From contig NZ_CP150241.1 in assembly GCF_037975235.1 (NCBI RefSeq), positions 1,054,001-1,118,000 on the forward strand: a stretch of 64,000 bases of DNA. The letters run 5' to 3'. The translations under genes were made by a program, and so were the position numbers. The DNA comes from Paenibacillus sp. FSL R5-0341 (lineage in GTDB: Bacteria; Bacillota; Bacilli; Paenibacillales; Paenibacillaceae). The notes under the pieces are model-generated. The model was given only the letters and a program-made list of their open reading frames with translations. It did not search any database and was not told the origin of the DNA. Below are positions 1-28,003 of the stretch, in pieces (position 1 is the first letter of the stretch; every line of letters starts with the position of its first letter).

Positions 1-161
1 CGGACCTGCTGGTGACCTGGCTCTACAAGCTCACGCTCGACAATAACAAGTTCAACATGGCTTCAGCGGTAGGCATTATCATTTTCCTCATTATTGCTTC
101 ATTCTCCATCTGGAACTTCCGCCGCTCCAAATCATTCAAGGAGGAGGACATGATTCAATGA
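1..161 (+). CDS. malF: Maltodextrin ABC permease MalF/MdxF, C-terminal end (partial)
   Basis: Only the last 52 codons are in the window (frame starts at base 3). They encode a final membrane helix (AVGIIIFLIIASFSIWNF) and a charged cytoplasmic tail, as at the end of MalF-type permeases. The stop TGA overlaps the ATG of the next permease gene by four bases (ATGA), so the two are translationally coupled and belong to one ABC importer for maltose or maltodextrins. The identification leans mostly on the MalG partner next door; the fragment itself carries little family-specific signal. Confidence 0.75.
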   Translation, partial: DLLVTWLYKLTLDNNKFNMASAVGIIIFLIIASFSIWNFRRSKSFKEEDMIQ

Positions 162-994
162 AGACACGTAATAATCCACTGCGCCTGGCTCTGAGTTATG
201 TGCTGTTGCTGATCATCGCCGTTGTCTCCATCTACCCGGTACTCTGGATCTTTCTCTCTTCCTTGAGACCCGGCGCGGCATTGTTCAGTGAACGGTTGTG
301 GCCCGAAGCATTTACGCTGACCCATTACGGTGAGCTGTTTAATAACCCGTCCTTTATGTACGGCAGATGGTATATGAATACGCTGAAAATTGCCTTTTTC
401 ACGATGATCTTCTCCACATTGATGGTGACACTTGGGATGTATGCACTGTCCCGCTTCCGGTTCCGTGGACGTAAAACCATTCTCTCCACCATGCTGATCC
501 TTGGCATGTTCCCAAGCTTTATGAGCATGATTGCGATCTATATCATTTTGCTGCAAATTAAATTGCTCGACACCCACGCTGCGCTCATCCTGGTCTATTC
601 TTCAGGGGCGGTACTGGGCGGATTTATCGTCAAAGGTTTCTTTGACACCATCCCGCGCAGTCTGGACGAAGCGGCGCGCATGGATGGTGCGAGTCACCTG
701 CGGGTATTCACCAGCATCATCCTGCCCTTATCCAAGCCGATGCTGACTTATGTGGCACTAACCAGTTTTACTGGTGCGTGGATGGACTTTATCTTCGCCC
801 GGCTGGTGCTGCGGACGAAGGAGAACTGGACGCTTGCAGTAGGCATGTGGGATCTGGTCAACCGGTATCAGGACAGTAACTTTACGATGTTCGCTGCGGG
901 TGCAGTTCTGATCGCCATTCCAATTACTCTGCTGTTCGTTTTCCTACAGCGATTCCTTGTTCAAGGGCTGACGGCAGGAGCTTCGAAAGGGTAA
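158..994 (+). CDS. malG: Maltodextrin ABC transporter permease MalG/MdxG
   Basis: A 278-residue inner-membrane permease with six predicted helices and the binding-protein-dependent transport motif (EAARMDGAS at about residues 171-179) that docks on the ATPase. The length and the C-terminal run after the last helix fit the MalG family (B. subtilis MdxG). It pairs with the upstream MalF to import linear maltodextrins released by extracellular amylases, which suits the CGTase and neopullulanase genes nearby. The start codon overlaps the malF stop. No gene follows closely, and a stem-loop lies about 50 bases downstream. Substrate is inferred from family and context. Confidence 0.88.
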   Translation: MKTRNNPLRLALSYVLLLIIAVVSIYPVLWIFLSSLRPGAALFSERLWPEAFTLTHYGELFNNPSFMYGRWYMNTLKIAFFTMIFSTLMVTLGMYALSRFRFRGRKTILSTMLILGMFPSFMSMIAIYIILLQIKLLDTHAALILVYSSGAVLGGFIVKGFFDTIPRSLDEAARMDGASHLRVFTSIILPLSKPMLTYVALTSFTGAWMDFIFARLVLRTKENWTLAVGMWDLVNRYQDSNFTMFAAGAVLIAIPITLLFVFLQRFLVQGLTAGASKG

Positions 995-1098: not shown

Positions 1099-1142
1099 GA
1101 TTCTGTATGGGCTCGAATCATGATTAGGGAGGAACGTGATAT

Positions 1143-2429
1143 ATGGGCATGGACCCGTCCAGTGAGCCCGAGATTATGGGATACCAAGATGGACAAGCTG
1201 CATTGCAAAATACCAAAGCTCCGCGAACACTTTGGCGTAATGTTACCTTTCGAAGGATTTTGTACGGCTACGGGATCTCGGTCTTTGGAGATTGCTTCAA
1301 TGGGATTGCGATCAGTCTGTGGGTGTTACAGACCACGGGGAGTGCGAAGAGCATGGCAGCCGTACAGATCTGCAATATGGCCGTCAGCTTTTTGTTTGGA
1401 TCGGTGGCGGGTACGGTTGCAGACCGATTGGATCGCAGGAAGCTAATGCTGGCCTCGGATGTATTTCGGGGCCTAATGGCGGTACTGATTGCGGTTAGCT
1501 TATTCGGTTGGCATGCGCCGTTCCCGGTGGTACTCTTATTACTCTCGCTCTCCATGTTTTCAAGTCTGTTTCAGGCACCTGCATTCCACGCCTCTGTAGC
1601 AAGTATGGTTGGCAGAGAGCATATTCAACAAGCGACCGGAACCATTCATATGGTGGATAACCTTGCCCGAATCAGCGGACTAGCGGCGGCGGGAGTGGCT
1701 GTTGCTGCTTTTGGCGGATTCGTTGCCATATTAATTACAGGGGCAACCTTCCTGTTGTCCGCAGTCTGTGTGCTGATGGCGGGCCGATTTCCAGAGGTAC
1801 AGCGATCCGATAGTCAGCAGACCACGTTTGCTCAGGAGTGGCGCAGTTCGTTTGGCTACATCTATCGAAATCCTTTGATCCGATCCATTGTATTGCTCAA
1901 TCCGGTGCTGATTTTATTTTTCATGTCAGCCATGATGCTGGTTCAAGTGATGGCGGTCAAGGTATGGGAGGCGAATCCGGTACAGTTTGGATTAATTGAG
2001 ACCTGTATTCCACTCGGATATATGATTGGCTCTGCGCTGCTAATTGCTTCGGGGAAACGATTGAAGCGAAGAGGGAGATGGGTATTTATCGGTCTGATTG
2101 TATTGGGGCCGATATATATATTTTTGGCGAATGTATCCTCACCGATCATGGCATTGCCTTTAATCGTAGGCGGAGGTGCGATGTTCGCCTGCTGTACGAT
2201 GCTCACCCAGATTATGCTGAGGACAGCCGTTCCAGACGAGCTGCAAGGAAGGGTCTATGGTGTCGTTGGAACAATCACCAGTACAGCGCCCATTCTGGGA
2301 TTGACGGTTGTCTCCGTATTGGCAGATCAATGGGGGGCAGCTTCTGTGCTGCAAGGCGTGGGCATACTGCTGCTGGCTACAGGTATTCTGGCAGCCACAA
2401 CATTGAAGTCGATTCGAACCTATCAATGA
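1143..2429 (+). CDS. MFS efflux transporter
   Basis: A 428-residue integral membrane protein of the major facilitator superfamily with about 12 helices. It has the MFS signature between helices 2 and 3 (GTVADRLDRRKLM at about residues 89-101). The N-terminal region (FGDCFNGIAISLWVLQTTGS) resembles the macrolide-efflux (MefA-like) branch, whose members expel drugs by proton antiport. The ATG is preceded by GGGAGGAACG at good spacing. It stands alone between the mal genes and the oppositely oriented CGTase, so no substrate can be inferred from neighbours. Another MFS protein of this general kind lies at 53627-54883. Confidence 0.8.
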   Translation: MGMDPSSEPEIMGYQDGQAALQNTKAPRTLWRNVTFRRILYGYGISVFGDCFNGIAISLWVLQTTGSAKSMAAVQICNMAVSFLFGSVAGTVADRLDRRKLMLASDVFRGLMAVLIAVSLFGWHAPFPVVLLLLSLSMFSSLFQAPAFHASVASMVGREHIQQATGTIHMVDNLARISGLAAAGVAVAAFGGFVAILITGATFLLSAVCVLMAGRFPEVQRSDSQQTTFAQEWRSSFGYIYRNPLIRSIVLLNPVLILFFMSAMMLVQVMAVKVWEANPVQFGLIETCIPLGYMIGSALLIASGKRLKRRGRWVFIGLIVLGPIYIFLANVSSPIMALPLIVGGGAMFACCTMLTQIMLRTAVPDELQGRVYGVVGTITSTAPILGLTVVSVLADQWGAASVLQGVGILLLATGILAATTLKSIRTYQ

Positions 2430-2530
2430 CATTCTCTGATACATCAAAATGATCTGAATTGAAACCACATGTACTCACTCAACAGAGAGATGATAGAAGC
2501 AATCGAAGCGACCTGGCTAGGTAAAAGCAA

Positions 2531-2568
2531 AACCCGGAGCATACGCAGCGTTAGCGTAACTCCGGGTT
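2531..2568. terminator. Bidirectional terminator hairpin
   Basis: A perfect 9-bp outer stem (AACCCGGAG at 2531-2539 with CTCCGGGTT at 2560-2568) and an inner 5-bp stem (TACGC/GCGTA) lie between two convergent genes, the MFS gene (+) and the CGTase gene (-). Confidence 0.75.
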
Positions 2569-2587
2569 AGTTTGTAGACTGTTTATC

Positions 2588-4744
2588 TTATTGCCAGTTT
2601 ACATTGACTGTCGCTGTACCACTGGTTGGTGTGGTGAACGTGTGGTTGGAACCACCTTCCCACGTAATGGTTGCACCATTTTTCTTGAAGAATTTGAACT
2701 CCAGTTGTTTTCCAGCGGGCACGCTCACATCATAGTACCAAGTTGGGTAGGCGTGGATAACTTGATTGAAAGCAGGGCCAATAGCTGTTGTACCCGTACT
2801 CCAGTTGCCCAGTTCTGCCACGTTACCTGTTAGATAGATGTTCTGACCCAGTGTGGTGGACGCATTGTTGATAACGAAACGTACAGTGACCTGATCACCC
2901 GTAAGGATGGTAAAGTTGTTATACGCATTGCTGTTAACGCCGTTCGCAGCTACTTTCACAGCATAATTGCCTGCGACAACAGCTGGAATGGTAACTTTGA
3001 TCTGCGTATCTTCCCAGGATGTGATCGCAGCACCGGTAACGGCTGTTGTACCGAAGTATACGGTGCCTTTGGTGGAACCAAATCCGCGTCCGCTAATCGT
3101 AACGACATTCCCCGGTTTGCCCATGACAGGACCTACATGTCCGATTGTTGGTGTAGTTTCGCTCGTTGTATACTGCCAGACCGCGGTTGCTCCGGCTGCC
3201 AGGGTGAATGAAGAGACGGTACCATTGGTAGAAGTGATGTTATTACCGTTCAGTGCGCCGCCCAGTACGTCGGTGTAGTTTCCTGTTGGCAGTGAAGTGC
3301 TTAGATTCGCAATGCTCGCTGGTGTGGAGAGATTACGGTTCACCGCAACAACGGCTACACTTTTGCCAAATTTGCGTTCATAGATATACACATCATTATT
3401 GATCCAGCGCTGCTGCGTGGAGCCATAGGCAATTGCCGGATTGGATTTGCGCAGAGGGGCCAGCTTACTGATCACGTTAAAAGCAGTCGTTGTTTTGGAG
3501 AAAGAAGGCATTTTGGCCCGATTATCAGGGTCTCCGTTTCCAGTCAGATATTGCTCGGTACCATAATAGATGGCAGGTACGCCGCGTGAAGTCAGCGTGA
3601 AGGCAAGCGCCTGTTCCAGACGACGATTGTTCACGGCACTTGTTTTGAACCGATCCATATCATGATTGTCGATGAATGTAACTTGATCATTCACCTGATT
3701 GTAATCTGCTGCTGTACCTGTGATCATCGAATCGAGGGCATACATGTTGGATGTGTTATCCCGGAAGACGTTACGTACGGCAGAGTTAAAGCGGAAATCA
3801 AGCAGGCTCATCCCGGATTCATTGGCAAATTCCGTGTTATCCGCATCGGAAGCAGCAGATCCTAAGAACCATTCACCGAAGGTGAATACAGGTTTATGTG
3901 CATAGATGGAGGACATCCAACTCTTTTGCCAGCCGAGAGGCATATGTTTCACCGCATCAACGCGAATGCCATCCACGCCCATGTCGAGCCATAGCTTGAT
4001 CGCGTCTTTGAAATATTGATCAATGGTGCTGTTATTGTGGTTCAGGTCAGCCAGGTCATAGAGGTTTTTGTAGATACCATTCTCCAGGGAGGAAAAATCG
4101 GAGCCGCCGTTGTGATGGAAATATCCATTTGTATCATTTGTGTATCCGCCAACAAGATTACCATTATCGTATAACTTGCCATTCTCAGCAAAGGAGGTAT
4201 CGGTCTCCATGGCAGGAGACGTGTGGTTCGGTGCAAAGTCAATGACGATCTTGATGCCTTTGGCATGAGCGGTTGTAATCAGATTTTGAAAGTCAGCCAT
4301 CGTTCCGAAATACGGATTGGTCTTCTTAAAATCACGTGCCCAGTAACCATGATAAGCTGTGTTGATCACGCCGCCGTAATTGATGGTGGCAAAGATATTT
4401 TCTACAGGCTGGGAGATCCAAAGTGCCGTAACGCCGAGATCGCTAAAATAGTTATCGTTGATTTTGTTGATCAAACCCTGCCAGTCGCCGCCACAATACA
4501 GCTTCAGGTTGCTACAAGTGGCATCGTAGGCAGCGCCGGTGGGATTGTTGGAAGGATTGCCGTCCAGGAAGCGGTCCGTAAAGATCTGATAGATGACGTC
4601 TGTACTAAAGTTCTGCTTGTTGGTAACTGCGGTATCCGCATCGGCATAGATCGCGGAAGCAGGCAGATAGGGAAGTGCGCCCCCTGCAAGTAAACTGAGT
4701 GTCAGTGTTGTGCTGAGGAGTACGCGTTTGGCCATTTGAAACAT
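2588..4744 (-). CDS. Secreted cyclomaltodextrin glucanotransferase (CGTase, GH13)
   Basis: A 718-residue extracellular enzyme that converts starch to cyclodextrins by transglycosylation. Start 4744 is preferred over the upstream in-frame start because AAGGGTGG sits seven bases before it and a signal peptide follows at once (residues 1 to about 33). The GH13 regions are all present: DFAPNH (169-174), GIRVDAVKH with nucleophile Asp263, FGEWFLG with acid/base Glu291, and FIDNHD with Asp362. The [13 protein letters not shown] stretch carries the central Tyr typical of CGTases and separates it from plain alpha-amylases. After the barrel come a domain C, an IPT/TIG-like domain D and a C-terminal CBM20 starch-binding domain ending TATVNVNWQ. 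This full A-E layout is CGTase-specific. The products would feed the MalFG importer and the cyclomaltodextrinase at 9800. A cre-like site lies upstream. Confidence 0.93.
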
Positions 4745-4805
4745 AGTAATCCACCCTTCTCGTGAATGTAGTAGTTTAAGATAAACAACCAACCTGGCTC
4801 TTGAA

Positions 4806-4819
4806 TAATAGCGCTTTCA
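4806..4819 (-). promoter_or_regulatory. cre-like CcpA operator upstream of CGTase
   Basis: On the minus strand the sequence TGAAAGCGCTATTA matches 13 of 14 positions of the cre consensus TGWAANCGNTNWCA. It lies 62-75 bases before the CGTase start, a usual position for catabolite repression of an amylase gene. Function is inferred from the match and the target. Confidence 0.6.
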
Positions 4820-4873
4820 ATACAGCGGAGTGTTACGCAGTGGATTGAAGACTTCCCTCCTTTTGACACGCCA

Positions 4874-4911
4874 ACAACCCCGGCATCTCCTTCGGGAGTT
4901 ACCGGGGTTGT
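4874..4911. other. GC-rich hairpin in the CGTase 5' region
   Basis: A 10-bp perfect outer stem (ACAACCCCGG at 4874-4883 with CCGGGGTTGT at 4902-4911) and an inner CTCC/GGAG stem closed by a TTCG loop. Neither side has a U-run, so a simple terminator is unlikely. It could be an mRNA leader structure or the end of an unannotated transcript. Confidence 0.4.
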
Positions 4912-5090
4912 CCTAAACCGCTCTGGTTTAAAAGCATGGCCCTCGAGTTATGATCACAACGTTATCGTAAGAAATATTGGATCTTATGTCAATAACTTTT
5001 TTGGGAGCATTTATTTTCTATTTTTATGTTTACAAAAGCACGTCCGGGGATTTAAACTATTCGCAGATTCACAATATAAGGGCTATGTAT

Positions 5091-5150
5091 CCCGGGACAC
5101 TTACGCGTGTTCTGGGACAACCCCGTCTCTTCTGAGGCGGGGTTATTTGT
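5091..5150 (+). terminator. Tandem hairpins just before the esterase gene
   Basis: Two adjacent stems: CCCGGGACAC (5091-5100) with GTGTTCTGGG (5107-5116), then AACCCCGTCTC (5119-5129) with GAGGCGGGGTT (5134-5144), loop TTCT, followed by ATTTGTTTGT. The second looks like an intrinsic terminator pointing into the cassette at 5198, so it may act as an attenuator in its leader or end a short transcript starting after 4912. The rest of 4912-5090 is AT-rich with no ORF that I trust. Confidence 0.5.
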
Positions 5151-5197
5151 TTGTATTATGCAGTCGAATCGGGAGAAGAAAGGCGGTTGATGATCAG

Positions 5198-6577
5198 TTG
5201 AGTAGCCATTCTGTTATCGAATGTTTGGAAGGTGTTCATGCGTCGCGGCTCGGCAATATCCGCAATATCCATGTGTATCTTCCACCCGGTTACCATGAGC
5301 AAGCAGATCGGCATTATCCTGTGCTGTACGTTCATGCAGGACAACGGGCTTTTGGTCCATCTGGGCCAGGCAATGAAACATGGCATATGGATCAGGCTGC
5401 GGACGGACTAATTGCCTCCGGGCAGATCGAATCCCTGATTATTGTCGGTATTGCACATGTCCGTCCAGTAACGCACAACGAATTCTACCACTTCATTGCT
5501 CCGAAGAGAGAGGCCGTGAGTGTGGGGTGCTCAGGCATCGACTATGAGCATTTCATCATTCATGAACTCAAGCCGCTCATTGATCATCGTTACCGTACAC
5601 TGCCGGACAAGTCGAATACCGGGTTGTTGGGTTCATCTGCCGCGGCACTTTGTACATTGCACATGGGGATGAGAAATCCGGATGTTTTCGGAAAACTGAT
5701 CATGATGTCGCCATTCTATGTGGATGTGCAGCTGGACGACACATCGGAAAGTGGACTGTTGGAAGAAAACATGTATCGCTTGCCAGAAGAGGTACCCGAC
5801 GTTCGAATGTGGATGGATATTGGAGATACGGAAGGTCTGTTTCTGCCTTCCCAGGTCAGAAGGGTAGCTCATCAATTACTTGAACGCGGAGTAGGATCGG
5901 GTGAGGAATTGGCATTTCTGGAACAGCCGGGTACCTGTCATCAGGAAGGTGACTGGGGAGCACGCGTGCACCTCCCGTTACTGTACATGTTCGGCCACGT
6001 GGGTAAGCCCTCCTCGCTCGAACTGCTTGGAAGGGATGTCATCGGACTACAGGGGGGGATGACCGTGTTCATCAATGCAAGAGTGCACTACGAGAGCGGA
6101 TTGGTTCAGAGTCTGCTGCATGGGAATTATACTTCGAGTGACCCGAATGTACTTCAGGTTCATGCGAGTGGAGAGTTGGTGCCTGTCGGTATTGGAAGTG
6201 CATCGATCACGCTGACGATGGGGGAACTGTCTACTACACGCATCTATACGGTTGTTCCTGAATTGTCCACTCATGTGGAGGTCTGCATTCATGCAGAGGT
6301 AACCTCAGAGGAAGAGACGGAGGAAACGATATATGGTGGGATGGGCATGAAGCTTGTCCGTTCCGGTAAAGGTCGATATGAAGGTTGTTACCGAGTCCCG
6401 CGTGATAGTGGGTTCTCCTTCCGATTTACTCGCGGTTTCCGTCGTTTCGAGACCGATGTGGATGGCAAACCTATTGCCAATCGGGTATTTCGAGCGACAG
6501 ATGATATGTCTGTGCATTACCTAATCCAATCCTGGGGTAGTACGTCAGCCAAAACGGGAACAGGAGGCCTAAAATGA
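5198..6577 (+). CDS. Esterase of the enterochelin-esterase/PF00756 type with Big-like and E-set domains
   Basis: About 459 residues from the proposed TTG start at 5198. An in-frame TTG exists at 5147 but lies inside the terminator tail, and GAGAAGAAAGGCGG precedes 5198. The N-terminal half is an alpha/beta hydrolase: strand and loop NIHVYLPPGYHE, nucleophile elbow LLGSSAAAL (GxSxx), and a His near the domain end (GTCHQEGDW). A Big2-like beta domain follows (NYTSSDPNVLQVHASGE). Last is an E-set module with the FRFTRGFRRFETDVDGKP motif seen beside PF00756 esterases. No signal peptide is evident, so it is probably cytoplasmic. It overlaps the next gene by four bases. By context it could release or edit an acyl group on the neighbouring carrier domain. 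A siderophore-ester hydrolase is the alternative. Confidence 0.7.
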   Translation: MSSHSVIECLEGVHASRLGNIRNIHVYLPPGYHEQADRHYPVLYVHAGQRAFGPSGPGNETWHMDQAADGLIASGQIESLIIVGIAHVRPVTHNEFYHFIAPKREAVSVGCSGIDYEHFIIHELKPLIDHRYRTLPDKSNTGLLGSSAAALCTLHMGMRNPDVFGKLIMMSPFYVDVQLDDTSESGLLEENMYRLPEEVPDVRMWMDIGDTEGLFLPSQVRRVAHQLLERGVGSGEELAFLEQPGTCHQEGDWGARVHLPLLYMFGHVGKPSSLELLGRDVIGLQGGMTVFINARVHYESGLVQSLLHGNYTSSDPNVLQVHASGELVPVGIGSASITLTMGELSTTRIYTVVPELSTHVEVCIHAEVTSEEETEETIYGGMGMKLVRSGKGRYEGCYRVPRDSGFSFRFTRGFRRFETDVDGKPIANRVFRATDDMSVHYLIQSWGSTSAKTGTGGLK

Positions 6578-7992
6578 TCATTCCTTCATTTGCTCCAGTG
6601 TTGGACATTCCCTATTATTATCCCTGCAATTTCCCTCTGATCCATGAAGTGCTCCATCGACAAGGATCTATCACAAGTCTTGCACTGCTGGCGGCAAGTC
6701 GGTTGTATAGCCTTCCTTCGTGCGGGGATAACGGACTGGTGAAGCCTTATTTTCACAAACTAGATTATATAGAGCCGATCTGGGAGATGTATGGTCAGCG
6801 GCAGCTGGACAGCTTCGAGGAAGGCAAGGCGGAGATCAGGCAGCATATCGGCGAAGGTGGGCTTTTTCTGGCTACAGGAACCAGTTATCATCTGCCTTAC
6901 TGTGAGGATTATCAGAATCCTGAGTACATCCGCAAACACGTGAAACAAGGCTCCCGACTGCATCTGGTAGACCATTGGATTGCCGTGTATGGTTTGGAAG
7001 AGGAGCATGTTCACGTCTATGATCCCGTGCCCTCCAAGTATAAGGGGAAGGTTGCCCAAAGAGCCTTTCATGATTTCTGGAAAGGGAACCAAAGCATACC
7101 CGAGCTTGCTCAGGCGAAGCGCAAAGAAGAACTCCGAACGTTTGGCACCATGGACATCCGGGCGACTGTGAAGCTTGACTCTGCGGGTTATCGAGATATG
7201 TTGACCCAGGCGTTAACAACGCAAATTGATGAGTTTCTAACAGGCCGGACGATTATACAAGGAGAGCGGAATTATTATTTTGGACATGCGGTGTCTTTGC
7301 AACTCCTAGATGCGTTGCATGCGGCGAATGAAGGTGATCAGGCCAATGAAATGTTAATATCCGGTCTGCTGTTTGATATGCGATGGAGCCGGTATTTTCT
7401 TCGAGATCTTCTTCAGGAGTCTGCGTTATGGCTGGGTTCTCCACTTGATCAATATGCAAGAGAATTCAGTAATATCATTGCACGGTGGGAGAAGGCATAC
7501 AATATGCTGCAGGTCAGCCGGATGAAGCACCGTGAGCAGTGGAAAGTACAGCTAACAGGTGTCATTAAGATGTTGGTCACGGATGAATGGCAATGGTATG
7601 AGTCACTTCGACAGTCCATACCTCAGGCAGATTGCTTTCAACGTCAGACCATGCCGATGATTGGAGAAGAACACAGGGAGGCCTTGCTCCGTATCGTATT
7701 GGATAGTTGCCGAGAGCTAAACGCTTACCACAATACATCGATTCCACTTGGTGAGGGTGGTAACGCTCCACTGTACGGACGAAGTGGCCAACTGGATTCG
7801 CTGGAACTGGTGTCATTGCTTGCAGTGGTAGAGCAGGGAATCGAAGATCGATGGGGAACAGGAATGAGCGCCGCTCTGGCGGAGATGGCTGCTGCTTCTT
7901 TGCCGGAAAGTCCTTATCAGACTGTAGGTTCACTTGTTGATTATCTCGCACAGCAATGGGCGCCTGCCCGTGAGGAGGATGCACAGTGGTAA
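6574..7992 (+). CDS. BtrH-like acyltransferase fused to a C-terminal acyl carrier domain
   Basis: 472 residues. The N-terminal part (to about 165) matches the BtrH_N fold, a papain/C39-like acyltransferase with a plausible Cys18 (PYYYPCNF), His134 (LVDHWIAVYG) and Asp150 (VHVYDP). Residues about 195-345 form a helical domain like the DUF4872 segment that usually follows BtrH_N. Residues about 365-462 look like an acyl/peptidyl carrier protein: GQLDSLELVSLL places the 4'-phosphopantetheine on Ser409. In butirosin synthesis BtrH moves an acyl group from a separate carrier (BtrI) to an amine; here the carrier appears fused to the transferase. It overlaps both neighbours (ATGA with the esterase, 7 bases with the ligase), so the three genes are one unit. 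The fusion and its role are my reading of the motifs. Confidence 0.72.
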   Translation: MIIPSFAPVLDIPYYYPCNFPLIHEVLHRQGSITSLALLAASRLYSLPSCGDNGLVKPYFHKLDYIEPIWEMYGQRQLDSFEEGKAEIRQHIGEGGLFLATGTSYHLPYCEDYQNPEYIRKHVKQGSRLHLVDHWIAVYGLEEEHVHVYDPVPSKYKGKVAQRAFHDFWKGNQSIPELAQAKRKEELRTFGTMDIRATVKLDSAGYRDMLTQALTTQIDEFLTGRTIIQGERNYYFGHAVSLQLLDALHAANEGDQANEMLISGLLFDMRWSRYFLRDLLQESALWLGSPLDQYAREFSNIIARWEKAYNMLQVSRMKHREQWKVQLTGVIKMLVTDEWQWYESLRQSIPQADCFQRQTMPMIGEEHREALLRIVLDSCRELNAYHNTSIPLGEGGNAPLYGRSGQLDSLELVSLLAVVEQGIEDRWGTGMSAALAEMAAASLPESPYQTVGSLVDYLAQQWAPAREEDAQW

Positions 7993-9410
7993 TCCAATTC
8001 TTGCTTGAACGATTCGCGGAACAGGGACAGCAACCTGCACTGATCTGGAAGGATCAGGAGTACAGCTATCGGTGGCTGCTGGAACAGGTTGGCATCATGG
8101 GTGAGTGGATTACAGCAGAAGGGCTGACGGGGCAACTTGTAACGCTGGAGGAAGACTACTCCCCCTATGCCGCGGCAGCATTGGTTGCTTTGCTCGGACA
8201 AGGGTGCATCGTGCTTCCCATGGATAGGTACCTGGTTGAAGCCAAACGAGAGGAATATATCCAACTGGCACAGGTGAAATGGCGTTTGGGCATTGAAGAA
8301 GGCAAGTTGTGTATTCGGCATACGTGTGAATCCTCTGGAGAGGTTCCCGTGTTGTTATCCTCGCTGGCACAGGAGGGCGTAGGGGGCCTGGTCCTCTTTT
8401 CATCCGGATCAACCGGAGTCAGTAAAGCGACTGTGCATCGTGCAGATCGGCTGTTACATCGTTTTCGGCGGCAGGTTCGGCCCTTGCGAACGATTCCATT
8501 CATGATGTTCGATCATATCGGCGGTGTAAATACGATGCTGCAATCCCTGTCCAGTGGGGGTTGTCTATGTATCATTGCAGATCGATCTCCTGAAGAAGTG
8601 TGCCGGACGATTGAGAAATTCCATGTTCAGGCCCTGCCAGCCTCACCGACGTTCATGAATCTGTTGATGTTGGGCAGAAATGATGAGGGATATGATCTAT
8701 CCAGTCTCGAAGTGGTGTCGTATGGATCGGAAGTGATGCCTGAATCCGTACTGGCAGCCTGGAACCGGAGATTTCCACAGATCAGGACGATACAAGCCTA
8801 TGGCATGTCTGAACTTGGTATTCTGCCAACCCGCTCCAAAGAGCCAGGTTCTCTGCTGTTCTCCATTCAAGATGAAGAGGTCAAGTATCGGGTGGTGGAA
8901 GGAGAATTGCAGATTTATACGGAAACCGCGATGATCGGATATCTGAATGCCCCATCCCCCTTTACAGAGGATGGATGGCTTCGTACAGGGGATGAAGCTG
9001 TGCTGGAGCAGGGGTACATTCGTATTCTGGGACGTCGTTCCGAGATCATTAACGTAGGGGGACGGAAAGTATATCCTGCCGAAGTTGAGGGTGTTTTGGA
9101 GCAGATGGAATGTATTGAAGCGGCCGTAGTTTCGGGAGACCAGAGCGGCATCACCGGTCAGAGGGTGAAGGTGACGGTACGACTGGCTACAGAATGTACT
9201 CTTACAGATCTGAGACGATCCATCTGGGAATATTGTCGGGACAAGCTGCCTTCATACAAAATTCCGCAGAAAATCGTGATTACGCAAGAGCTGCTCGTAA
9301 GTTCGAGAATGAAGAAAATACGAAAACCGATGACTTCGTTGCCGTTGGCCTCGGTTGGGGAAGAGGTCGCGGCAACCAATGAATATCAGGCGGGCATTAG
9401 AGAACGTTAA
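7986..9410 (+). CDS. ANL-family adenylating ligase (AMP-binding)
   Basis: 474 residues, GTG start overlapping the previous gene. ANL superfamily motifs are clear: A3 P-loop LFSSGSTGVSKATVH (137-151), A5 QAYGMSELG, A7/A8 GWLRTGDEAV and LGRRSEIINVGGRKVYP, and a C-terminal A10-like lysine region (SRMKKIRK). Such enzymes activate a carboxylic acid with ATP and transfer it to a pantetheine thiol. The obvious acceptor here is the carrier domain of the preceding protein. The substrate cannot be read by eye. It is shorter than typical acyl-CoA ligases (about 500-560 residues) and closer to stand-alone small-acid loaders. The cassette ends here; no termination hairpin follows until 9724. Confidence 0.82.
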   Translation: MVIQFLLERFAEQGQQPALIWKDQEYSYRWLLEQVGIMGEWITAEGLTGQLVTLEEDYSPYAAAALVALLGQGCIVLPMDRYLVEAKREEYIQLAQVKWRLGIEEGKLCIRHTCESSGEVPVLLSSLAQEGVGGLVLFSSGSTGVSKATVHRADRLLHRFRRQVRPLRTIPFMMFDHIGGVNTMLQSLSSGGCLCIIADRSPEEVCRTIEKFHVQALPASPTFMNLLMLGRNDEGYDLSSLEVVSYGSEVMPESVLAAWNRRFPQIRTIQAYGMSELGILPTRSKEPGSLLFSIQDEEVKYRVVEGELQIYTETAMIGYLNAPSPFTEDGWLRTGDEAVLEQGYIRILGRRSEIINVGGRKVYPAEVEGVLEQMECIEAAVVSGDQSGITGQRVKVTVRLATECTLTDLRRSIWEYCRDKLPSYKIPQKIVITQELLVSSRMKKIRKPMTSLPLASVGEEVAATNEYQAGIRER

Positions 9411-9482
9411 CCTATCTGGAAACGTGAACGGAACAGAAAAGGAGCTACCTCAAATAGCTTCACCTCGCTCGAATCGCTATCG

Positions 9483-9676
9483 CTAACGAACCTCAAACGT
9501 CGTATTAAGGGATAATCAAGAAAAGTAAAACCTAACGAATCTCAGTAACGTTATTGCATCAAAATACGGCTTCTGCTTGCGAAAATCGACTTATTGGACG
9601 AAATAAGGTTTCTCTGATTCGTTAGGCATTTAGCCCACGTATAATGAAGCAAATAACGTGTGCTGGGTTCGTTAGG
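9483..9676. repeat. Nested inverted-repeat element (REP/MITE-like)
   Basis: Two nested pairs of inverted repeats share the core CTAACGAA. The outer pair is CTAACGAACC (9483-9492) with GGTTCGTTAG (9666-9675). The inner pair is CCTAACGAATC (9531-9541) with GATTCGTTAGG (9616-9626). The roughly 195-base element has no convincing coding frame and fills much of the 390-base gap between the ligase gene and the convergent amylase gene. It looks like a small interspersed repeat; copy number in the genome cannot be seen here. Confidence 0.5.
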
Positions 9677-9723
9677 ATATGACGTATAAGATTCATAAGA
9701 TGTATCAGACATATAAGATACAG

Positions 9724-9766
9724 AAGAGGCTGTTCCCCGGGCGTATGACCTGGAGGACAGCCTCTT
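9724..9766. terminator. Bidirectional terminator
   Basis: A 10-bp stem AAGAGGCTGT (9724-9733) with ACAGCCTCTT (9757-9766) lies between convergent genes, 33 bases past the stop of the minus-strand amylase. Confidence 0.7.
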
Positions 9767-9799
9767 TGAAGTTATTTTACCTTGTTAGCTGTATTCATC

Positions 9800-11572
9800 T
9801 CAGGCCTCAGCTGGTTGTTTCACCTCAAGTTGCATCAGGGAGAATCCGTATGCTTCCAGATTGAGGGTCAGTTTATTTTGCCGAGCTTCCACGGTGTTTG
9901 CTGTGAATAGATTTCGCCAGACGTTACGATCTGCCAAGGGGAGTTCCAGTGTACACGGCTCATCACCCGCATTCAGCACAAGAAGCATACGTTCACCTGA
10001 ATTCGAATCCAATCGTTCGATGGCAAGACAAGGGTCTCCGGCTTTTGCATATACAATCTTCAGTTCCGTGCTGCGAAGGGCAGGGTGCTCTTTGCGAAGG
10101 GCAATCGTACGGGTGAAGAATTCCAGAAGTTCACGGTTCTGTTTGGTCTCATCCCACTCCATACACTTGCGGCAACCCGGATCATATCCCCCATCAAGAC
10201 CCACTTCGTCTCCATAATAGATACAGGGTACACCTGGATACGTAAGCAGCAACGTAACGGCAAGCTTCATCTTGCGTTCATCTCCATCACACAAGGACAG
10301 CAGTCTGGGCGTATCATGGCTTCCGAGCAGATTGAAAGCTGCTTCCGTTACAGGCTGTGAATAGGCTGCGAGCAGTTTGCCGATCTCATTCGCGAAGCCA
10401 AGTCCATCCAGCTTTCCGTGCACCGTGTAGTCCAATACCGAATTGGTAAATGGATAATTCATCACGGCATCGAACTGGTCTCCCTGAAGCCACATGAGCG
10501 AATCATGCCAGATCTCACCGAGCAGATAGGCGTCAGGCTTGATGGCCTTTACCGTCTGCCGGAATTCGCGCCAGAACTGATGATCCACCTCATTCGCCAC
10601 ATCTAGTCTCCAGCCGTCAATATCCATCTCCTCAATCCAGAAACGTCCTACCTCCAGCAGGTATGCCTTCACTTCAGGGTGTTCCGTATTCAGCTTCGGC
10701 ATGAGCGGCTCAAAGGCAAAGGTGTCATAAGTCGGTATACCATCCTCCACACGCGGCGGCCAATCCTTAATATAGAACCAATCTGCGTAGGAGGAGGCAG
10801 CTCCATTCTTCATCACATCCACAAAAGGAGGAAACTCTCTCCCGGAATGATTAAATACCGCATCCAGAACAACGCGTATACCTCGCTGATGACAGGCGTC
10901 CACAAAGGCTTTGAACTGTTCATTGGTTCCAAAGTGAGGATCAACTTTCATGTAATCGCCTGTATTGTATTTGTGATTCGTCGTGGCCTCGAACAGCGGA
11001 CAGAAGTAGATGGCATTGATACCGAGCTGGCTGATATGATCCAGATGATCAAGCACACCTTGCAGATCTCCACCAAAGAAGTTCACCGGTGTAGGTTCTC
11101 CTCCCCAGGGTTCCGCATTTTTGGGACTGATGAAGGGATCACCATTGGCATAACGTTCAGGGAAAATCTGATAAAACACAGCGTCCTTAACCCAGGCAGG
11201 CGGTTCAAATATGTCGACTGGGTTCATAAATGGAAAATCAAAGAATTCAAGTGGATGATCAGGCAACGCCTGCTCGAATCCACGCTCTGTCATCCAGACC
11301 GATTCCTCTCCCTGAATCAATTGGAACCCATACCGTAATCTGCGATAGGGAGGTGAAGTCTCGGCTTCCCAATAATCGAACATTTCATCTCGGGCAAAGA
11401 TGTGCATGGGGATGTGCGTGATCGTCCGATCCCAGGCATATTTGTCCCCGGTAATCGCAATCACCGCATCCAGATCCCCGCGTTTGGACCGAAGTCGCAG
11501 GTGCATGGTCGAGCGATCATAAGCATAGGACCAATTGAGTTTGGGGCGATGGTAAATGGCTTCAAGAATCAT
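9800..11572 (-). CDS. Neopullulanase / cyclomaltodextrinase / maltogenic amylase (GH13_20)
   Basis: 590 residues, no signal peptide, so a cytoplasmic enzyme that opens cyclodextrins and short maltodextrins after import. Start 11572 (ATG) is chosen over the GTG three codons upstream because GAGGAG is 8 bases from the ATG. Residues 1 to about 120 are the CBM34 dimerisation domain typical of this subfamily. The barrel shows DAVFNH, GWRLDVANE (nucleophile Asp324), LGEIWHD (acid/base Glu353) and LGSHDTPR (Asp420). The MPKLN motif is characteristic of GH13_20. With the CGTase and MalFG it completes an extracellular-to-intracellular cyclodextrin route. Confidence 0.92.
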   Translation of the reverse strand: MILEAIYHRPKLNWSYAYDRSTMHLRLRSKRGDLDAVIAITGDKYAWDRTITHIPMHIFARDEMFDYWEAETSPPYRRLRYGFQLIQGEESVWMTERGFEQALPDHPLEFFDFPFMNPVDIFEPPAWVKDAVFYQIFPERYANGDPFISPKNAEPWGGEPTPVNFFGGDLQGVLDHLDHISQLGINAIYFCPLFEATTNHKYNTGDYMKVDPHFGTNEQFKAFVDACHQRGIRVVLDAVFNHSGREFPPFVDVMKNGAASSYADWFYIKDWPPRVEDGIPTYDTFAFEPLMPKLNTEHPEVKAYLLEVGRFWIEEMDIDGWRLDVANEVDHQFWREFRQTVKAIKPDAYLLGEIWHDSLMWLQGDQFDAVMNYPFTNSVLDYTVHGKLDGLGFANEIGKLLAAYSQPVTEAAFNLLGSHDTPRLLSLCDGDERKMKLAVTLLLTYPGVPCIYYGDEVGLDGGYDPGCRKCMEWDETKQNRELLEFFTRTIALRKEHPALRSTELKIVYAKAGDPCLAIERLDSNSGERMLLVLNAGDEPCTLELPLADRNVWRNLFTANTVEARQNKLTLNLEAYGFSLMQLEVKQPAEA

Positions 11573-11626
11573 GTGAATCACTCCTCGTCAGATGATGAAA
11601 TTCATATCAATGCGGCCATATAAACG

Positions 11627-20875: not shown

Positions 20876-22231
20876 ATGTCAGTAGAGGTGCAGACGGAAT
20901 ATCTGAAGATGCAAAATGAGAAGGAATCCAATGCAAGATCGTACCCCAGACATTTCCCGCTTGTCATTAGCAAGGCCCATGGGGTGAAGATTACCGATAC
21001 GGAAGGCCGCGTATTCTACGACTGCCTGGCTGGTGCAGGAACATTGGCGCTGGGACATAACCATGACACGGTGGTCAACGCCATTCGCGATGTTCTGGAT
21101 CAGCAGATTCCGCTACATACACTGGATTTGGCAACGCCGCTGAAGCTTTCATATATGCAAGAACTATTCTCCATCCTTCCGGAAGAAATGCGAGATAAAG
21201 CCAAGATTCAGTTCTGTGGTCCAACCGGAGCGGATGCCGTAGAAGCAGCCATTAAGCTGGTCAAACATGCCACAGGTGGCAAGTCCATTCTTGCCTTTCA
21301 AGGTGGTTATCACGGTTCAACCCAAGCGACGATGTCGATGAGTGGCAATCTGAGCAAGAAACAGCATCTGCAAAGCCTGCTGCCGGATGTGCATTTCCTG
21401 CCGTTTCCTTATGAATACCGTTGCCCATTTGGTGTTGGTGAAGGCATGACGGCCCAATTAAGCGCACAGTATATCGAGAATTTGCTCGATGATTGCGAGA
21501 GCGGTATTGCGGCACCCTGCGGGGTCATTGTGGAGACCGTACAGGGAGAGGGCGGAGCGATTCCAGCGGATATCGAATGGCTCAAGGAGTTACGTCGTAT
21601 CACAGCAGAGCGAAATATTCCGCTCATTATTGACGAAGTGCAGACAGGCATCGGACGGACAGGGCGAATGTTTTCATTTGAACATGCCGGAATCATACCC
21701 GATGTAATCATCTGCTCCAAAGCGGTTGGCGGTAGTCTGCCAATGTCTGTTGTCATCTACAAAGAAGAGCTGGACCAATGGCAGCCTGGTGCACACACAG
21801 GTACGTTCCGTGGCAATCAGCTAGCCATGGCCGCGGGGCTTGCCACACTTCGCTATATCCGGGAACAGGATATTCTACAAAACGTGCAGCTGCGCAGTGA
21901 GCAGTTCATGAATCAACTGAATGCATTGAAAGAGCGGTATGCAGAGATTGGTGACGTGCGGGGCAGAGGGCTGATGATTGGCGTTGAAGTAGTTGATCCA
22001 ACAGGACGTAAGGATCGTCTGGGACATTATCTCCCCAATGGTGCGCTGGCTGAGTCAATTCAGCGTGAATGCTTCAAGAATGGATTAATTGTAGAACTGG
22101 GCGGGCGTCATTCAGCGGTTGTTCGTTTTCTGCCGCCGCTGAATATTACAGAGCAGGAATCGAACGCGATCCTCGCGATCTTTGAGAAATCGGTAACTGA
22201 AGCGATTACCTTAGCAACGGCCGCATGCTGA
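20876..22231 (+). CDS. Diaminobutyrate-2-oxoglutarate aminotransferase (RhbA/EctB-like)
   Basis: 451 residues, class III PLP aminotransferase. IIDEVQTGIGRTG (Asp253) and IICSKAVGGSLP (Lys282) hold the cofactor; THTGTFRGNQL-like residues (GAHTGTFRGNQLAM) bind its phosphate. FCGPTGADAVEAAIKLVK near residue 115 is typical of L-2,4-diaminobutyrate transaminases, which make Dab from aspartate semialdehyde and glutamate. In rhizobactin and schizokinen pathways this enzyme feeds 1,3-diaminopropane synthesis. Here it takes the place of SbnA/SbnB, which make diaminopropionate in S. aureus. The stop overlaps the MFS gene start. Confidence 0.88.
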   Translation: MSVEVQTEYLKMQNEKESNARSYPRHFPLVISKAHGVKITDTEGRVFYDCLAGAGTLALGHNHDTVVNAIRDVLDQQIPLHTLDLATPLKLSYMQELFSILPEEMRDKAKIQFCGPTGADAVEAAIKLVKHATGGKSILAFQGGYHGSTQATMSMSGNLSKKQHLQSLLPDVHFLPFPYEYRCPFGVGEGMTAQLSAQYIENLLDDCESGIAAPCGVIVETVQGEGGAIPADIEWLKELRRITAERNIPLIIDEVQTGIGRTGRMFSFEHAGIIPDVIICSKAVGGSLPMSVVIYKEELDQWQPGAHTGTFRGNQLAMAAGLATLRYIREQDILQNVQLRSEQFMNQLNALKERYAEIGDVRGRGLMIGVEVVDPTGRKDRLGHYLPNGALAESIQRECFKNGLIVELGGRHSAVVRFLPPLNITEQESNAILAIFEKSVTEAITLATAAC

Positions 22232-23658
22232 AGCTGTCCCTGATGAAGAGGCATGCAGTATTACTCGCGATTCTGATCGGTGCTTTTTCGCTGGTGCTGA
22301 CCAACAGTGCATTTAACCTGCTGCTGCCTTATTTTGTGCAATACTATCAGATCTCTACGACAGCAGGCGGATGGATCATCGCATTGTACATGCTCGCCAT
22401 GACGTTAACGATGCCGCTGGCTTCCCTGATCGTGGACCGACTGGGCCGTAAACAGACGTATATGTTGGGCATCAGTATCTATGGACTCTTCTCGGTGGCA
22501 GGTGCGTTGTTTTATCACTCCATCGAAGTGCTCTTGCTGGTCCGTTTCATGCATGGGGTTGCCGCCGGGCTGATGATTCCGTTATCGCTTGTGCTGCTGT
22601 TTGATGTATACGGACCGGAGGTAAGGGGGCGAATTACCGGAGCGTGGGGCTTGCTGCTTATGCTGGCTCCGGCTGCTGGTCCAACGCTGGGTGGTTTTAT
22701 CATTCAGTACGGAAGGCTTGAAATGCTGTTCTGGCTCAATGTGCCGCTGGCTGTGTTTTCTTTTATCGGGTGCGGCCGAGTCATTCAAACTTATATCCCT
22801 GCCCGCAGGAAAAAATGGCATCCTTTCAGTGTCATGCTGCTAATCTGTGCGGTAGGTGCCCTTAGTCTGGGGGTACAGTTGTACGCAAGTCCTGTCGTGG
22901 CAGTATGGGTACCTTGGCTGCTGATTGCGCTGGGTGTAGTGTTACTCATTCGTTTTGTCCAGACAGAGAACGGTCGCAAGGAACCGTTGATCCGGTACCA
23001 GTTGCTGCGGCGTAATGCCGTCTTTCCGCTGACCGTGCTGATCTCGACCATTCAGGATTGTGTCATGTTTGGCGTGATCTTTGCATTGCCGTTGTTGTTC
23101 CAGGACGTCTTCCACCTGTCGCCGGCCCTGTCCGGTGCGCTGTTCATTCCCTTGTCGATCTGTACAAGTCTGTTCATGTGGATTGGCGGCAGCTTGCTGG
23201 ATCGCGGTCGGTCCAGGCATTTTATCGCATGGGGCACGTTGTTGGTGTCGATATCGATCTTGTCGTTTGCAGTTCTGCCCATGGGAGCATCAATCTGGAT
23301 CATCGGAATACTCATGGCGTGCCGGGGAATTGGCGTTGGCCTGTCAGGCATGAGTATCTCTGCTATCGGTTTACAAGCATTACCGGACGAAGACATGCAC
23401 GAAGGGTCGGTGTTATCGACGACGATTGAGCGGCTGGCTTCTTCGTTTGCGGTGATGGGCATGACGCTGTATTACGATATGCGTTGGCAATGGCTTGCCG
23501 GGGCAGGAACGTCCATGGAGATGGCCAAATGGGGAGCGCTCAAAGAAATCTGTATCGGACTTGGCTGCGCCATACTGCTTACACTTCCCCTGGTCTTACT
23601 TATAACCCGAAAGAAGGTTGGCATCATTGTTCGAGATGGAAAACAAGCTCCGGTCTGA
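22225..23658 (+). CDS. MFS exporter, putative siderophore efflux (SbnD-position)
   Basis: 477 residues with about 14 helices, DHA2/EmrB-QacA type: motif A LIVDRLGRKQTYMLG and motif C region LLLMLAPAAGPTLGG. It lies in the operon between the aminotransferase and the first siderophore synthetase, the same position as sbnD in the staphyloferrin B cluster, so export of the finished siderophore is the natural role. S. aureus SbnD is a shorter MFS protein, so this may be a functional replacement and not an orthologue. It overlaps the preceding gene by seven bases. Confidence 0.82.
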   Translation: MLKLSLMKRHAVLLAILIGAFSLVLTNSAFNLLLPYFVQYYQISTTAGGWIIALYMLAMTLTMPLASLIVDRLGRKQTYMLGISIYGLFSVAGALFYHSIEVLLLVRFMHGVAAGLMIPLSLVLLFDVYGPEVRGRITGAWGLLLMLAPAAGPTLGGFIIQYGRLEMLFWLNVPLAVFSFIGCGRVIQTYIPARRKKWHPFSVMLLICAVGALSLGVQLYASPVVAVWVPWLLIALGVVLLIRFVQTENGRKEPLIRYQLLRRNAVFPLTVLISTIQDCVMFGVIFALPLLFQDVFHLSPALSGALFIPLSICTSLFMWIGGSLLDRGRSRHFIAWGTLLVSISILSFAVLPMGASIWIIGILMACRGIGVGLSGMSISAIGLQALPDEDMHEGSVLSTTIERLASSFAVMGMTLYYDMRWQWLAGAGTSMEMAKWGALKEICIGLGCAILLTLPLVLLITRKKVGIIVRDGKQAPV

Positions 23659-25420
23659 GACTGAGCAGCAGGCCCATGAACATTCGTGCAAGCTGCTGCT
23701 GAACTGTTACATCCGTGAGCTTGCGTTAGAAAAGGAAAGCGATATTCGGATCAATCCGAATACGCTGACGTACGCTGTTGCTTTTCAAGCCAGCGGGGTG
23801 AAGGTGACGGGACAGCTGGCCTATCACTCTGCCATGGGAGAGCATGAATACCTCAGCATGCAATCTGGCGGGGAAGCGGTGCATTATCGCGACCTGGTTC
23901 GCTGGATCACATCTGAGCTAAGTGGAGATACGGCACGGGGAGCGAGTTCTTATTCCCATGGAATACCTAAGAGTGCGATGGAAATGAAGAGTTCACTTGA
24001 GGTGGATATTGCACATCCAAAGGGCGAGAATACGAATCGTGACGAGGCGGCGTATGCCAGAGATTTTGCACAAAAGGTAGATAACAGTGTGGGCAACCTT
24101 ACGTTGTATATCGAACAAGCAGCCGGTCTCGACATCCACGACTATCGCACATCGGAACAGTCACTGTTGTATGGTCATCCGTTCCATCCGTTTCCGAAGA
24201 ACTCCAAAGGCTTTAGCGAGCAGGATGTACAGAAGTACAGTCCGGAGCTACGGACATCGTTTCAACTCTGTTATATCGCCGTGAGGCAGGATGTCTATGT
24301 GCAGGAATGGGTGGATGACGAGGCGGTAATGGATTTGCATGGTCTCCTGCGGAGCCATGTGGAGCCGATTTTAAAAGAAAAGAGTGGAATGTATGGGCTT
24401 CTGCCCGTCCATCCATGGCAATACGCGTACATATCACAGCTGTCCGAAGTACAGCACTATATTCGAGATGAAAAATTAATTCTGCTTGGCAGTGCGGGGC
24501 CAATCGTCTATCCGACTTCTTCGGTCCGTACGGTTTATATTCCGGCATGGAACTGCAATATCAAGCTGTCACTGAACATGCAGATCACCAACATGATTCG
24601 TATCAACAGTGCCGAGCAGATGCGCAGAACATTGGATGCCTCCAGATACGTCAGGCAGCATGACTGTTTCGGTGCTGAACCGCACACCCATATTGCGTAT
24701 GAGACAGGTGTAGCGACATGTGCCTTTGATGATGAAGAATTAACCAGTCTATTTACGATAGCTTATCGGCCCATTGAGTTCGACCCTGCGAATACGTATG
24801 TCTTATCCAGTCTGGTTGAAGCACCCCTTCCTGGGATGCGATCGCGGCTGATGACGTTGCTGGGCGGTGACCGTGACATAGCTGAGCGCTGGCTGGATCG
24901 ATATCTGCAATGTTCTCTACTGCCGATTGTACGGGCGGCGGGTGAGAAAGGAATTCATTTTGAAGCTCATTTGCAGAATACCCTTGTGACCTTAAAGGAT
25001 GGAATGCCTGTCGATTTTATCGTCCGCGATCTGGAAGGGGTCAGTGTGGATGAGGAACTTATAAGTGAGCAGGAACGTGCAGTGTCCGATTTACTATTTT
25101 ATTCGCGAGAGAAAGCCTGGGCGCGGACATCGTACTATTTTATCGTCAATCATCTGGGGTCTTTGATTCATGCGATGGCGCGAGATGTGAACGTCCCGGA
25201 GGAGCATTTCTGGAAACAGGTACGTGAGGTACTTGTGGAGGAACTGGAACGAACGGGCAATGCATATGTGCAACATCTGCTGACAACGGATGCATTTCTG
25301 GCCAAACAAAATTTGGTGAGTTGTCTAAGGGGTATCAGCCAGACCCCGGCCTACGTGCCGGTGAGCAATGTAATGAAACGAATAGGGAGTGAAGTTCGTG
25401 GGAGTGGGATACAGGGCTGA
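23636..25420 (+). CDS. IucA/IucC-family NIS siderophore synthetase 1 (SbnE-like position)
   Basis: About 594 residues. The start is uncertain: ATG 23636 is listed, but TTG 23627 has the better-spaced AAGAAGG; both lie inside the end of the MFS gene. NIS synthetase motifs are intact: GHPFHPFPKNSKGF (carboxylate/ATP region), LLPVHPWQY, a KLSLNMQITN stretch and HFEAHLQNTLV (ATP/metal). These enzymes adenylate citrate or 2-oxoglutarate and form an amide with an amine. Order and neighbours correspond to sbnE. Three distinct synthetases in one operon imply three condensations, as in staphyloferrin B. The overlap with the next gene shows tight coupling. Confidence 0.9.
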   Translation: MENKLRSETEQQAHEHSCKLLLNCYIRELALEKESDIRINPNTLTYAVAFQASGVKVTGQLAYHSAMGEHEYLSMQSGGEAVHYRDLVRWITSELSGDTARGASSYSHGIPKSAMEMKSSLEVDIAHPKGENTNRDEAAYARDFAQKVDNSVGNLTLYIEQAAGLDIHDYRTSEQSLLYGHPFHPFPKNSKGFSEQDVQKYSPELRTSFQLCYIAVRQDVYVQEWVDDEAVMDLHGLLRSHVEPILKEKSGMYGLLPVHPWQYAYISQLSEVQHYIRDEKLILLGSAGPIVYPTSSVRTVYIPAWNCNIKLSLNMQITNMIRINSAEQMRRTLDASRYVRQHDCFGAEPHTHIAYETGVATCAFDDEELTSLFTIAYRPIEFDPANTYVLSSLVEAPLPGMRSRLMTLLGGDRDIAERWLDRYLQCSLLPIVRAAGEKGIHFEAHLQNTLVTLKDGMPVDFIVRDLEGVSVDEELISEQERAVSDLLFYSREKAWARTSYYFIVNHLGSLIHAMARDVNVPEEHFWKQVREVLVEELERTGNAYVQHLLTTDAFLAKQNLVSCLRGISQTPAYVPVSNVMKRIGSEVRGSGIQG

Positions 25421-27230: not shown

Positions 27231-28003
27231 GGATTAACACGCTGAAGGAAAAGATTGCACGCAAACAGCCAGTCTATGGCCTTTTTGTATCCATACCACA
27301 CCCGGTCATCATCGAGATGATCGGCCATGCGGAATATGACTTTGTCATTATTGATCTGGAACATGCCGCAACATCGATGGAATCGGTGGAAGAGTTGATT
27401 CGTGCGGCGGAACTGGTGGGCCTAACCCCGTTGGTTCGTATCTCGAAGGTGGAGCGAGCGGAGATTCTTAAAGTGCTTGACTGTGGCGCCCAAGGCATCG
27501 TCATTCCACATGTTGAGCAACTGGAGCAGGTGGAGGAAGCGGTTCGTCACGCCTACTATCATCCGGTTGGTATGCGCAGCTTGAATAGTGGTCGTCCCGG
27601 CGAATTCGGTAAATATCCGCTCACGGGATACATTGGGGAAGCGAACCAACAGGTGATGGTTGTACCCATGATCGAAAGTGTGGAGGGCGTGCGACAAAGT
27701 GCACAGATTCTGTCTCACCCTCAGGTGAGTTTTGTATTGGAAGGCGCGGCGGATCTGTCGCAATCCCTCGGCGTACCATGGCAGACCGAGCACCCAGAAG
27801 TGAGACGTGCACTGGATGAATTGCATGCTACCGCGCAGCAGTGCGAAGTACCTTATGCAACGGTCACGAGAGGCGTGGAAGACATGTCGCTCTGGGCTGA
27901 GCGGGGAGTACATATATACGTGCTGGGTGATGATCGGAATACTGCGTTTCGGGCGTATGCCCAAAAACGGAATGACTACAGGAATGCGGGTGGGCAGATA
28001 TGA
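27227..28003 (+). CDS. SbnG-like citrate synthase (HpcH/HpaI aldolase fold)
   Basis: 258 residues, TIM-barrel of the HpcH/HpaI family: FVIIDLEHAATSMESV (substrate/metal loop), VRISKVERAEILKVLDCGAQGIVIPHV and VVPMIESVEGV. In S. aureus SbnG condenses oxaloacetate with acetyl-CoA to give a dedicated citrate pool for staphyloferrin B. Its place between two synthetase genes and the SbnH-like gene supports the same job, freeing the pathway from the TCA-cycle citrate synthase under iron starvation. ATGA overlaps join it to both neighbours. Confidence 0.87.
   Translation: MRINTLKEKIARKQPVYGLFVSIPHPVIIEMIGHAEYDFVIIDLEHAATSMESVEELIRAAELVGLTPLVRISKVERAEILKVLDCGAQGIVIPHVEQLEQVEEAVRHAYYHPVGMRSLNSGRPGEFGKYPLTGYIGEANQQVMVVPMIESVEGVRQSAQILSHPQVSFVLEGAADLSQSLGVPWQTEHPEVRRALDELHATAQQCEVPYATVTRGVEDMSLWAERGVHIYVLGDDRNTAFRAYAQKRNDYRNAGGQI

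Follow-up and report, generated by a model that had tools for sequence, protein, structure and literature searches.

A transferase-carrier fusion, its own ligase and an esterase form a probable acyl-conjugation unit in a candidate starch regulon of Paenibacillus

The window analyzed here, the whole stretch of 64,000 nucleotides from Paenibacillus sp. FSL R5-0341, contains a unit of three overlapping genes that is probably, as judged from sequence, a carrier-dependent acyl-conjugation pathway inside a starch regulon. It is most aptly seen as a transferase-carrier fusion accompanied by a dedicated ligase and a CE1-like esterase, and its leader RNA is one that starch genes also have. Sequence support was obtained for the domain identities, residue conservation, gene linkage, the shared covarying leader RNA and the co-occurrence with CGTase. 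That the pathway is self-contained and expressed as part of a starch/cyclodextrin regulon seems to us rather likely. If this is true, the pathway would rank as a very small one of the carrier-protein type, in which the papain-like condensing domain and its carrier are one polypeptide; it would be tied to starch metabolism and lie outside any recognised antibiotic or siderophore cluster. Among the papers searched, none dealt with a riboswitch of CGTase genes or with a fusion of BtrH_N to a carrier.

Gene organization and proposed pathway

Open reading frame calling located the esterase gene at 5198..6577, the transferase-carrier gene at 6574..7992 and the ligase gene at 7986..9410, all on the + strand, where the preliminary description had placed them, with overlaps of 4 nt (esterase/transferase) and 7 nt (transferase/ligase). 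Divergent from the unit is a gene for a secreted CGTase-like alpha-amylase with GH13, TIG and CBM20 domains (2588..4792, - strand), and the intergenic region between the two was found to carry two copies of one element in opposite orientation, i.e., the leader RNA of the unit (5070..5151, +) and a second copy 5′ of the CGTase gene (4869..4952, -). The same starch neighbourhood includes a MalG-like ABC sugar transporter permease (158..994, +), and a cyclomaltodextrinase/maltogenic amylase of GH13 (9800..11581, -) is the downstream neighbour of the unit. An MFS exporter-like protein (PF05977; 1143..2429, +) is usually close to the unit. Elsewhere in the window, a series of large ORFs, overlapping or closely spaced and all on the + strand, was noticed at 22225-31117.

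Carrier loading, acyl transfer, the class of acceptor, the role of the esterase and starch-dependent expression are steps that we infer. A host PPTase would attach phosphopantetheine to Ser409 of the carrier, and the ligase would adenylate a carboxylic acid and load it on the phosphopantetheine arm. Cys18 of the transferase would then take the acyl group in a Cys-His-Asp ping-pong reaction as for CcbD and hand it on, the acceptor being most likely an amine and possibly an amino sugar; this mechanism is proposed by analogy, since it follows the CcbD and BtrH_N/C39 precedents. A PhyH oxygenase, in most genera, would hydroxylate the acid or the product, and the CE1-type esterase may hydrolyse or re-transfer an acyl ester, in acid supply, proof-reading or product release. 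One and the same type of attenuator-like leader RNA probably controls transcription of both the unit and the secreted CGTase; the product would then be formed during the attack on starch, and the shared leader suggests growth on starch as the time of its formation.

Carrier domain and ligase

The transferase had been described as ending in its own carrier domain. Its C-terminal segment (residues 365-462; 7666..7959, +) contains LDSLELVSLL with Ser409, the predicted phosphopantetheine site (codon 7798-7800, +), and this serine was invariant in 33/33 homologues having the same neighbours. Stand-alone homologues of about 105 aa were found in eight genomes, and those that were aligned have this serine motif too; the homologues matched DltC/ACP models (best 1.6e-4, DltC) and, weakly, AsbD. 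A profile of the carrier domain and these homologues was searched against the PDB (matches taken at E<=10), and 11 of the 15 matches were acyl or D-alanyl carrier proteins, the best with an E value of 0.009. The AlphaFold model, of modest confidence (block means ~45-83), revealed four helices, the second of which begins at Ser409, where a four-helix carrier domain has the invariant serine of (L)(D/N)S(L/V/I). By hhalign against NRPS PCPs, the scores were not apart from those of control segments of the same protein. We consider the carrier identity of the segment established by homology. Both the fold and the conserved serine of the preliminary description were retained. Three ACPS-family matches in the genome of the strain indicate that a PPTase is available.

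The third gene encodes a protein of 474 aa, and its assignment as an acid-activating ligase of the ANL superfamily agrees with a Pfam AMP-binding match above the cut-off (1e-29), with conserved SGSTG, YGMSE and GRRSE motifs and with the C-terminal lysines; its nearest solved relatives, by profile matches, were 4-chlorobenzoate-CoA and OSB-CoA ligases. Ligase homologues with 38-46% identity were situated within ~1.2 kb of the stand-alone carrier in 8/8 loci (L062-L067, L101 and L102), which come from two distant groups. In one of these, L064, a BtrH-like protein, a carrier and a ligase are encoded by consecutive separate genes, an arrangement that appears as the unfused counterpart of the fusion in the window. 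The homologous pair was also seen in SDR/GNAT settings, with KASIII-like fragments in L062 and with nonulosonate genes in L063, L101 and L102; the pairs of these loci perhaps serve acylated surface sugars.

Two known systems that combine an ANL ligase with a small carrier were compared. In DltA-DltC D-alanylation, the DltC models and structures are matched by the carrier homologues of the unit, whereas the unit is without an MBOAT protein such as DltB and has a papain-like, cytosolic transferase. In the petrobactin system, AsbC-AsbD-AsbE (ANL ligase, small carrier and transferase, respectively) form an amide, AsbE presumably being a DUF6005 protein. The weak AsbD matches of the carrier homologues connect the unit to this system, but AsbC, AsbD and AsbE are three separate proteins and no other siderophore genes were noticed near the unit. 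DUF6005 has only recently been recognised as a papain-like family, and it is placed in the vicinity of siderophore genes (PMC10318531).

Transferase domain

The fusion protein consists of a papain-like, BtrH_N-related domain followed by a helical region and the carrier, and it is 99% identical to that of P. amylolyticus strain Heshi-A3. Its predicted catalytic residues are Cys18 (codon 6625-6627), His134 (6973-6975) and Asp150 (7021-7023), all on the + strand; His134 and Asp150 were invariant in 33/33 homologues, and Cys18 in all 32 whose fragment covers the cysteine. The domain had been labelled BtrH_N/DUF4872. Of this label the relation to BtrH_N stood, although the Pfam match (E 2.6e-05, 24.9 bits) was below the cut-off of 29.7 and covered only the C-terminal half of the model, while DUF4872 found no support, with no Pfam match in the transferase at E<=1. 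Thus, of the features of the BtrH family (PF14399), the conserved C39-like Cys/His/Asp was found, but neither the gathering score nor the C-terminal DUF4872. The unit appears to work like a BtrH/CcbD-type carrier-dependent acyl transfer system, with a transferase that is outside the BtrH family by score and by DUF4872.

BtrH_N has been placed next to C39 (PMC10318531), and in sequence searches the C39 peptidase ComA aligned weakly to the transferase at His/Asp; AziU3-type chains were also matched weakly. The best Foldseek matches of the transferase model were AziU2-U3, CcbD (bound to its carrier) and CtaG, all weak (E 0.04-1). The AlphaFold models of the transferase and the esterase were low in overall confidence (mean pLDDT 47 and 53), and therefore Foldseek matches were used only as leads. 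AziU2-U3 and CtaG differ from the fusion in being stand-alone proteins of NRPS-type clusters, with no fused carrier or esterase.

CcbD operates by a Cys-His-Glu ping-pong mechanism that transfers a carrier-bound prolyl group to an amino sugar (PMC12945683). The transferase resembles BtrH of butirosin side-chain transfer in being, by prediction, a papain-like, C39-related, acyl-carrier-dependent acyltransferase with Cys/His/Asp, but it has a C-terminal fused carrier and an ANL ligase, has no aminoglycoside genes around it, and differs in its sub-cut-off BtrH_N score and missing DUF4872 match. The lincosamide condensing enzymes CcbD/LmbD share with the proposed reaction a cysteine-protease-like triad, a carrier-bound acyl donor, amide formation to an amino sugar and a Cys-thioester ping-pong (PMC12945683), whereas they are separate proteins of actinobacterial antibiotic clusters, with Glu in place of Asp in the triad and no esterase. 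BtrH, the precedent first proposed, is still relevant, but CcbD/LmbD (reviewed in PMC12945683) are a better precedent than BtrH alone. The reaction proposed at that time, in which the ligase loads the fused carrier and the Cys/His/Asp domain transfers the acyl group, gains support at the sequence level from the conserved catalytic residues, the 8/8 split loci and the CcbD/AziU2/CtaG-type resemblance.

By analogy, the amine acylated by the unit might belong to a sugar, glycan or surface polymer, with no free small molecule being made, as may be so for the related ligase-carrier pairs of nonulosonate/polysaccharide clusters. The acceptors of CcbD and BtrH are indeed amino sugars (PMC12945683, PMC10318531), and ligase and carrier homologues lie beside NeuB-like, SDR and GNAT genes in L063, L101 and L102; however, the unit is without glycosyltransferase, amino-sugar or polymer genes and in locus L051 the four genes of unit and oxygenase occupy a housekeeping setting, and we regard such a role as quite improbable.

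In the region 1100-11128 (+) of locus L105, an NRPS (three C domains, A and PCP by Pfam) was noticed, the C-terminal residues ~2967-3293 of which are ~26% identical to the transferase domain; this stretch is possibly a papain-like terminal domain.

Esterase

The esterase ORF is open from TTG 5147 or TTG 5198. The latter is the likely start, because it agrees with the N-termini of homologues, while TTG 5147 is located immediately behind the leader hairpin (5119-5144). The Pfam Esterase family (PF00756) was matched with E 7.5e-25 and 88.6 bits, reaching the family score, and the conserved Ser147, Asp207/Asp210 and His248 (numbering from TTG 5198) correspond to the catalytic triad of a PF00756/CE1-like alpha/beta hydrolase. 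The extra beta domains mentioned previously were also recovered, by a sub-threshold Big-like Pfam match and by Foldseek matches of the AlphaFold model to Big_2-CBM56. The C-terminal beta domain matched no Pfam or PDB family, and for this reason no starch-binding role is claimed for it. No hydrophobic N-terminal signal was seen, and the enzyme is therefore probably cytosolic. In catalytic domain and Ser/Asp/His layout it is like the CE1/PF00756 feruloyl esterases (5vol, 7b5v, 6rzo), but these have an N-terminal CBM48, whereas the esterase of the window has the C-terminal Big-like and unassigned beta domains and no signal peptide was seen in it.

The role of the esterase is the weakest part of the model, and the idea that it "releases or edits" the product was a guess of the preliminary description. 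It could be argued that the unit is instead catabolic, the probably cytosolic esterase stripping aromatic acyls from imported plant oligosaccharides, the ligase and transferase re-conjugating the acid to a harmless amide and the MFS pump exporting it. This would fit with an esterase nearest in sequence and fold to feruloyl/acetyl-xylan esterases, with the ligase profile matches to 4-chlorobenzoate-CoA and OSB-CoA ligases, and with the starch neighbourhood and the nearby MFS. However, it is arabinoxylan and not starch that is typically feruloylated, a dedicated fused carrier would be costly for detoxification, and no import or aromatic-degradation genes were linked to the unit. We consider this salvage function of low probability.

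Leader RNA shared with starch genes

The element consists, in order, of an (A/G)AGGGC-N-(A/C)TG box, a hairpin (P1) and a terminator-like hairpin (P2) with ACAACCCCG...CGGGGTT. P1 and upper P2 were found to covary, with 104 double-changed cells versus 41.7 in shuffled alignments; none of 500 shuffles reached the score, slid controls were far lower, and single-sequence folds had z values of -4 to -6. Thus covariation supports the helices of a structured RNA. Rfam 15 gave no gathering match in the window, only four weak unrelated ones (E 0.9-2). The intergenic regions between CGTase and esterase genes were also inspected for cre-like sites, of which there were none. In the 6.57-Mb genome of the strain, the covariance model identified exactly two sites, 5′ of the esterase and CGTase genes; a third pattern match, without a P1-like hairpin or terminator, looks like chance. 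A leader peptide was considered and dropped, since among the leaders read the spacing after the conserved ATG-like triplet was not kept in frame.

The covariance model was run on 171 Paenibacillaceae genomes; 20 of these carry the unit, and in each of the 20 the leader was 5′ of it. Among the 80 strongest matches, which were classified, 41 were followed by CGTase genes or CMDase-CGTase operons and 20 by the unit, and the other 19 lay at further sites. For most of these 19 the downstream genes were read; they encode MalEFG-like transporters, a CBM21 starch-binding protein, a pullulanase and products unconnected with starch. The leader pattern also preceded 19 of 20 further CGTase genes, 15 of them in genomes without the unit, and for the twentieth (in G002) the leader was found by the covariance model. 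The three strongest matches outside Paenibacillaceae were each 5′ of a CGTase homologue, in three other families. In Bacilli, the leader may represent a new attenuator-like cis-regulatory RNA for CGTase and starch genes, and such a family would control industrially used CGTases. The unit seems to be wired into starch use, because its leader is common to starch-degrading genes. This link of the leader to starch is not exclusive, since non-starch genes, i.e., aac(3)-type acetyltransferase, Rhs-like and ABC genes, were also preceded by it, mostly with weaker matches.

Among such loci, a leader of the same pattern with a shorter P2 is 5′ of aac(3)-type N-acetyltransferase genes unrelated to starch in L176, L180 and L181 (G099, G034 and G077, respectively), and another gene of this type is behind a weak leader match in L178. 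In L169 (G100:C16) the leader is joined directly to a 5′-truncated MFS gene and looks like a remnant.

A CGTase orthologue was present in each of the 38 genomes with the unit, against 44 of the 263 without it (Fisher 1.3e-25, and 3.3e-10 outside the genus, relatedness uncorrected; p = 0.017 in a genus-level test). The shared leader and the co-occurrence are partly explained by the divergent layout and common descent, and the unit could have been inserted beside CGTase and taken an inverted leader copy while being unrelated to starch. In most loci the two leaders lie side by side in divergent orientation and many CGTase genomes have no unit, as would be expected from such an insertion; on the other hand, the large unit loci that were fetched have the leader pattern 5′ of the esterase gene, and among them L051, L052 and L054 keep it with no CGTase within the fetched flanks of ~8 kb, and in genus g12 the listed unit genomes are the CGTase-orthologue genomes (7/7). 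A hitch-hiking association of this kind is in our opinion unlikely, and expression with the starch genes is preferred. Unit and CGTase are far apart in G003, G036, G256 and G156. It is possible, if somewhat doubtful, that through a new cis-regulatory RNA class the breakdown of starch outside the cell by CGTase is coupled to a pathway of four genes (esterase, transferase-carrier fusion, ligase and PhyH) making an undescribed acyl conjugate, e.g., an N-acyl amino sugar or a cyclodextrin guest molecule.

Distribution and neighbouring genes

The genome survey suggested earlier found the unit intact in 38 of about 300 Paenibacillaceae genomes, and order and phylum samples contained no full-length match to it outside this family. 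In every fetched unit locus outside the genus of the window, a PhyH 2OG/Fe(II) oxygenase gene was present as a fourth gene 3′ of the ligase, and in L051 these four genes stand alone among housekeeping genes. The unit had been called minimal, without other biosynthetic genes. This is only partly right: the genome of the strain studied has no PhyH oxygenase, but the loci with PhyH do have a further gene, and the description had missed the leader RNA common to the unit, the adjoining CGTase gene and starch genes elsewhere.

In genus g1, the MFS gene was present in 25/25 unit genomes and in 0/19 others, and its product (1143..2429) is a candidate exporter. As an obligatory partner of the unit it was rejected, genomes G104, G120, G136 and G240 of genus g12 having the MFS without the unit. 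It was also noticed that in L040 (Paenibacillus sp. OVF10) the esterase, transferase and ligase frames are each broken, by sequencing error or decay.
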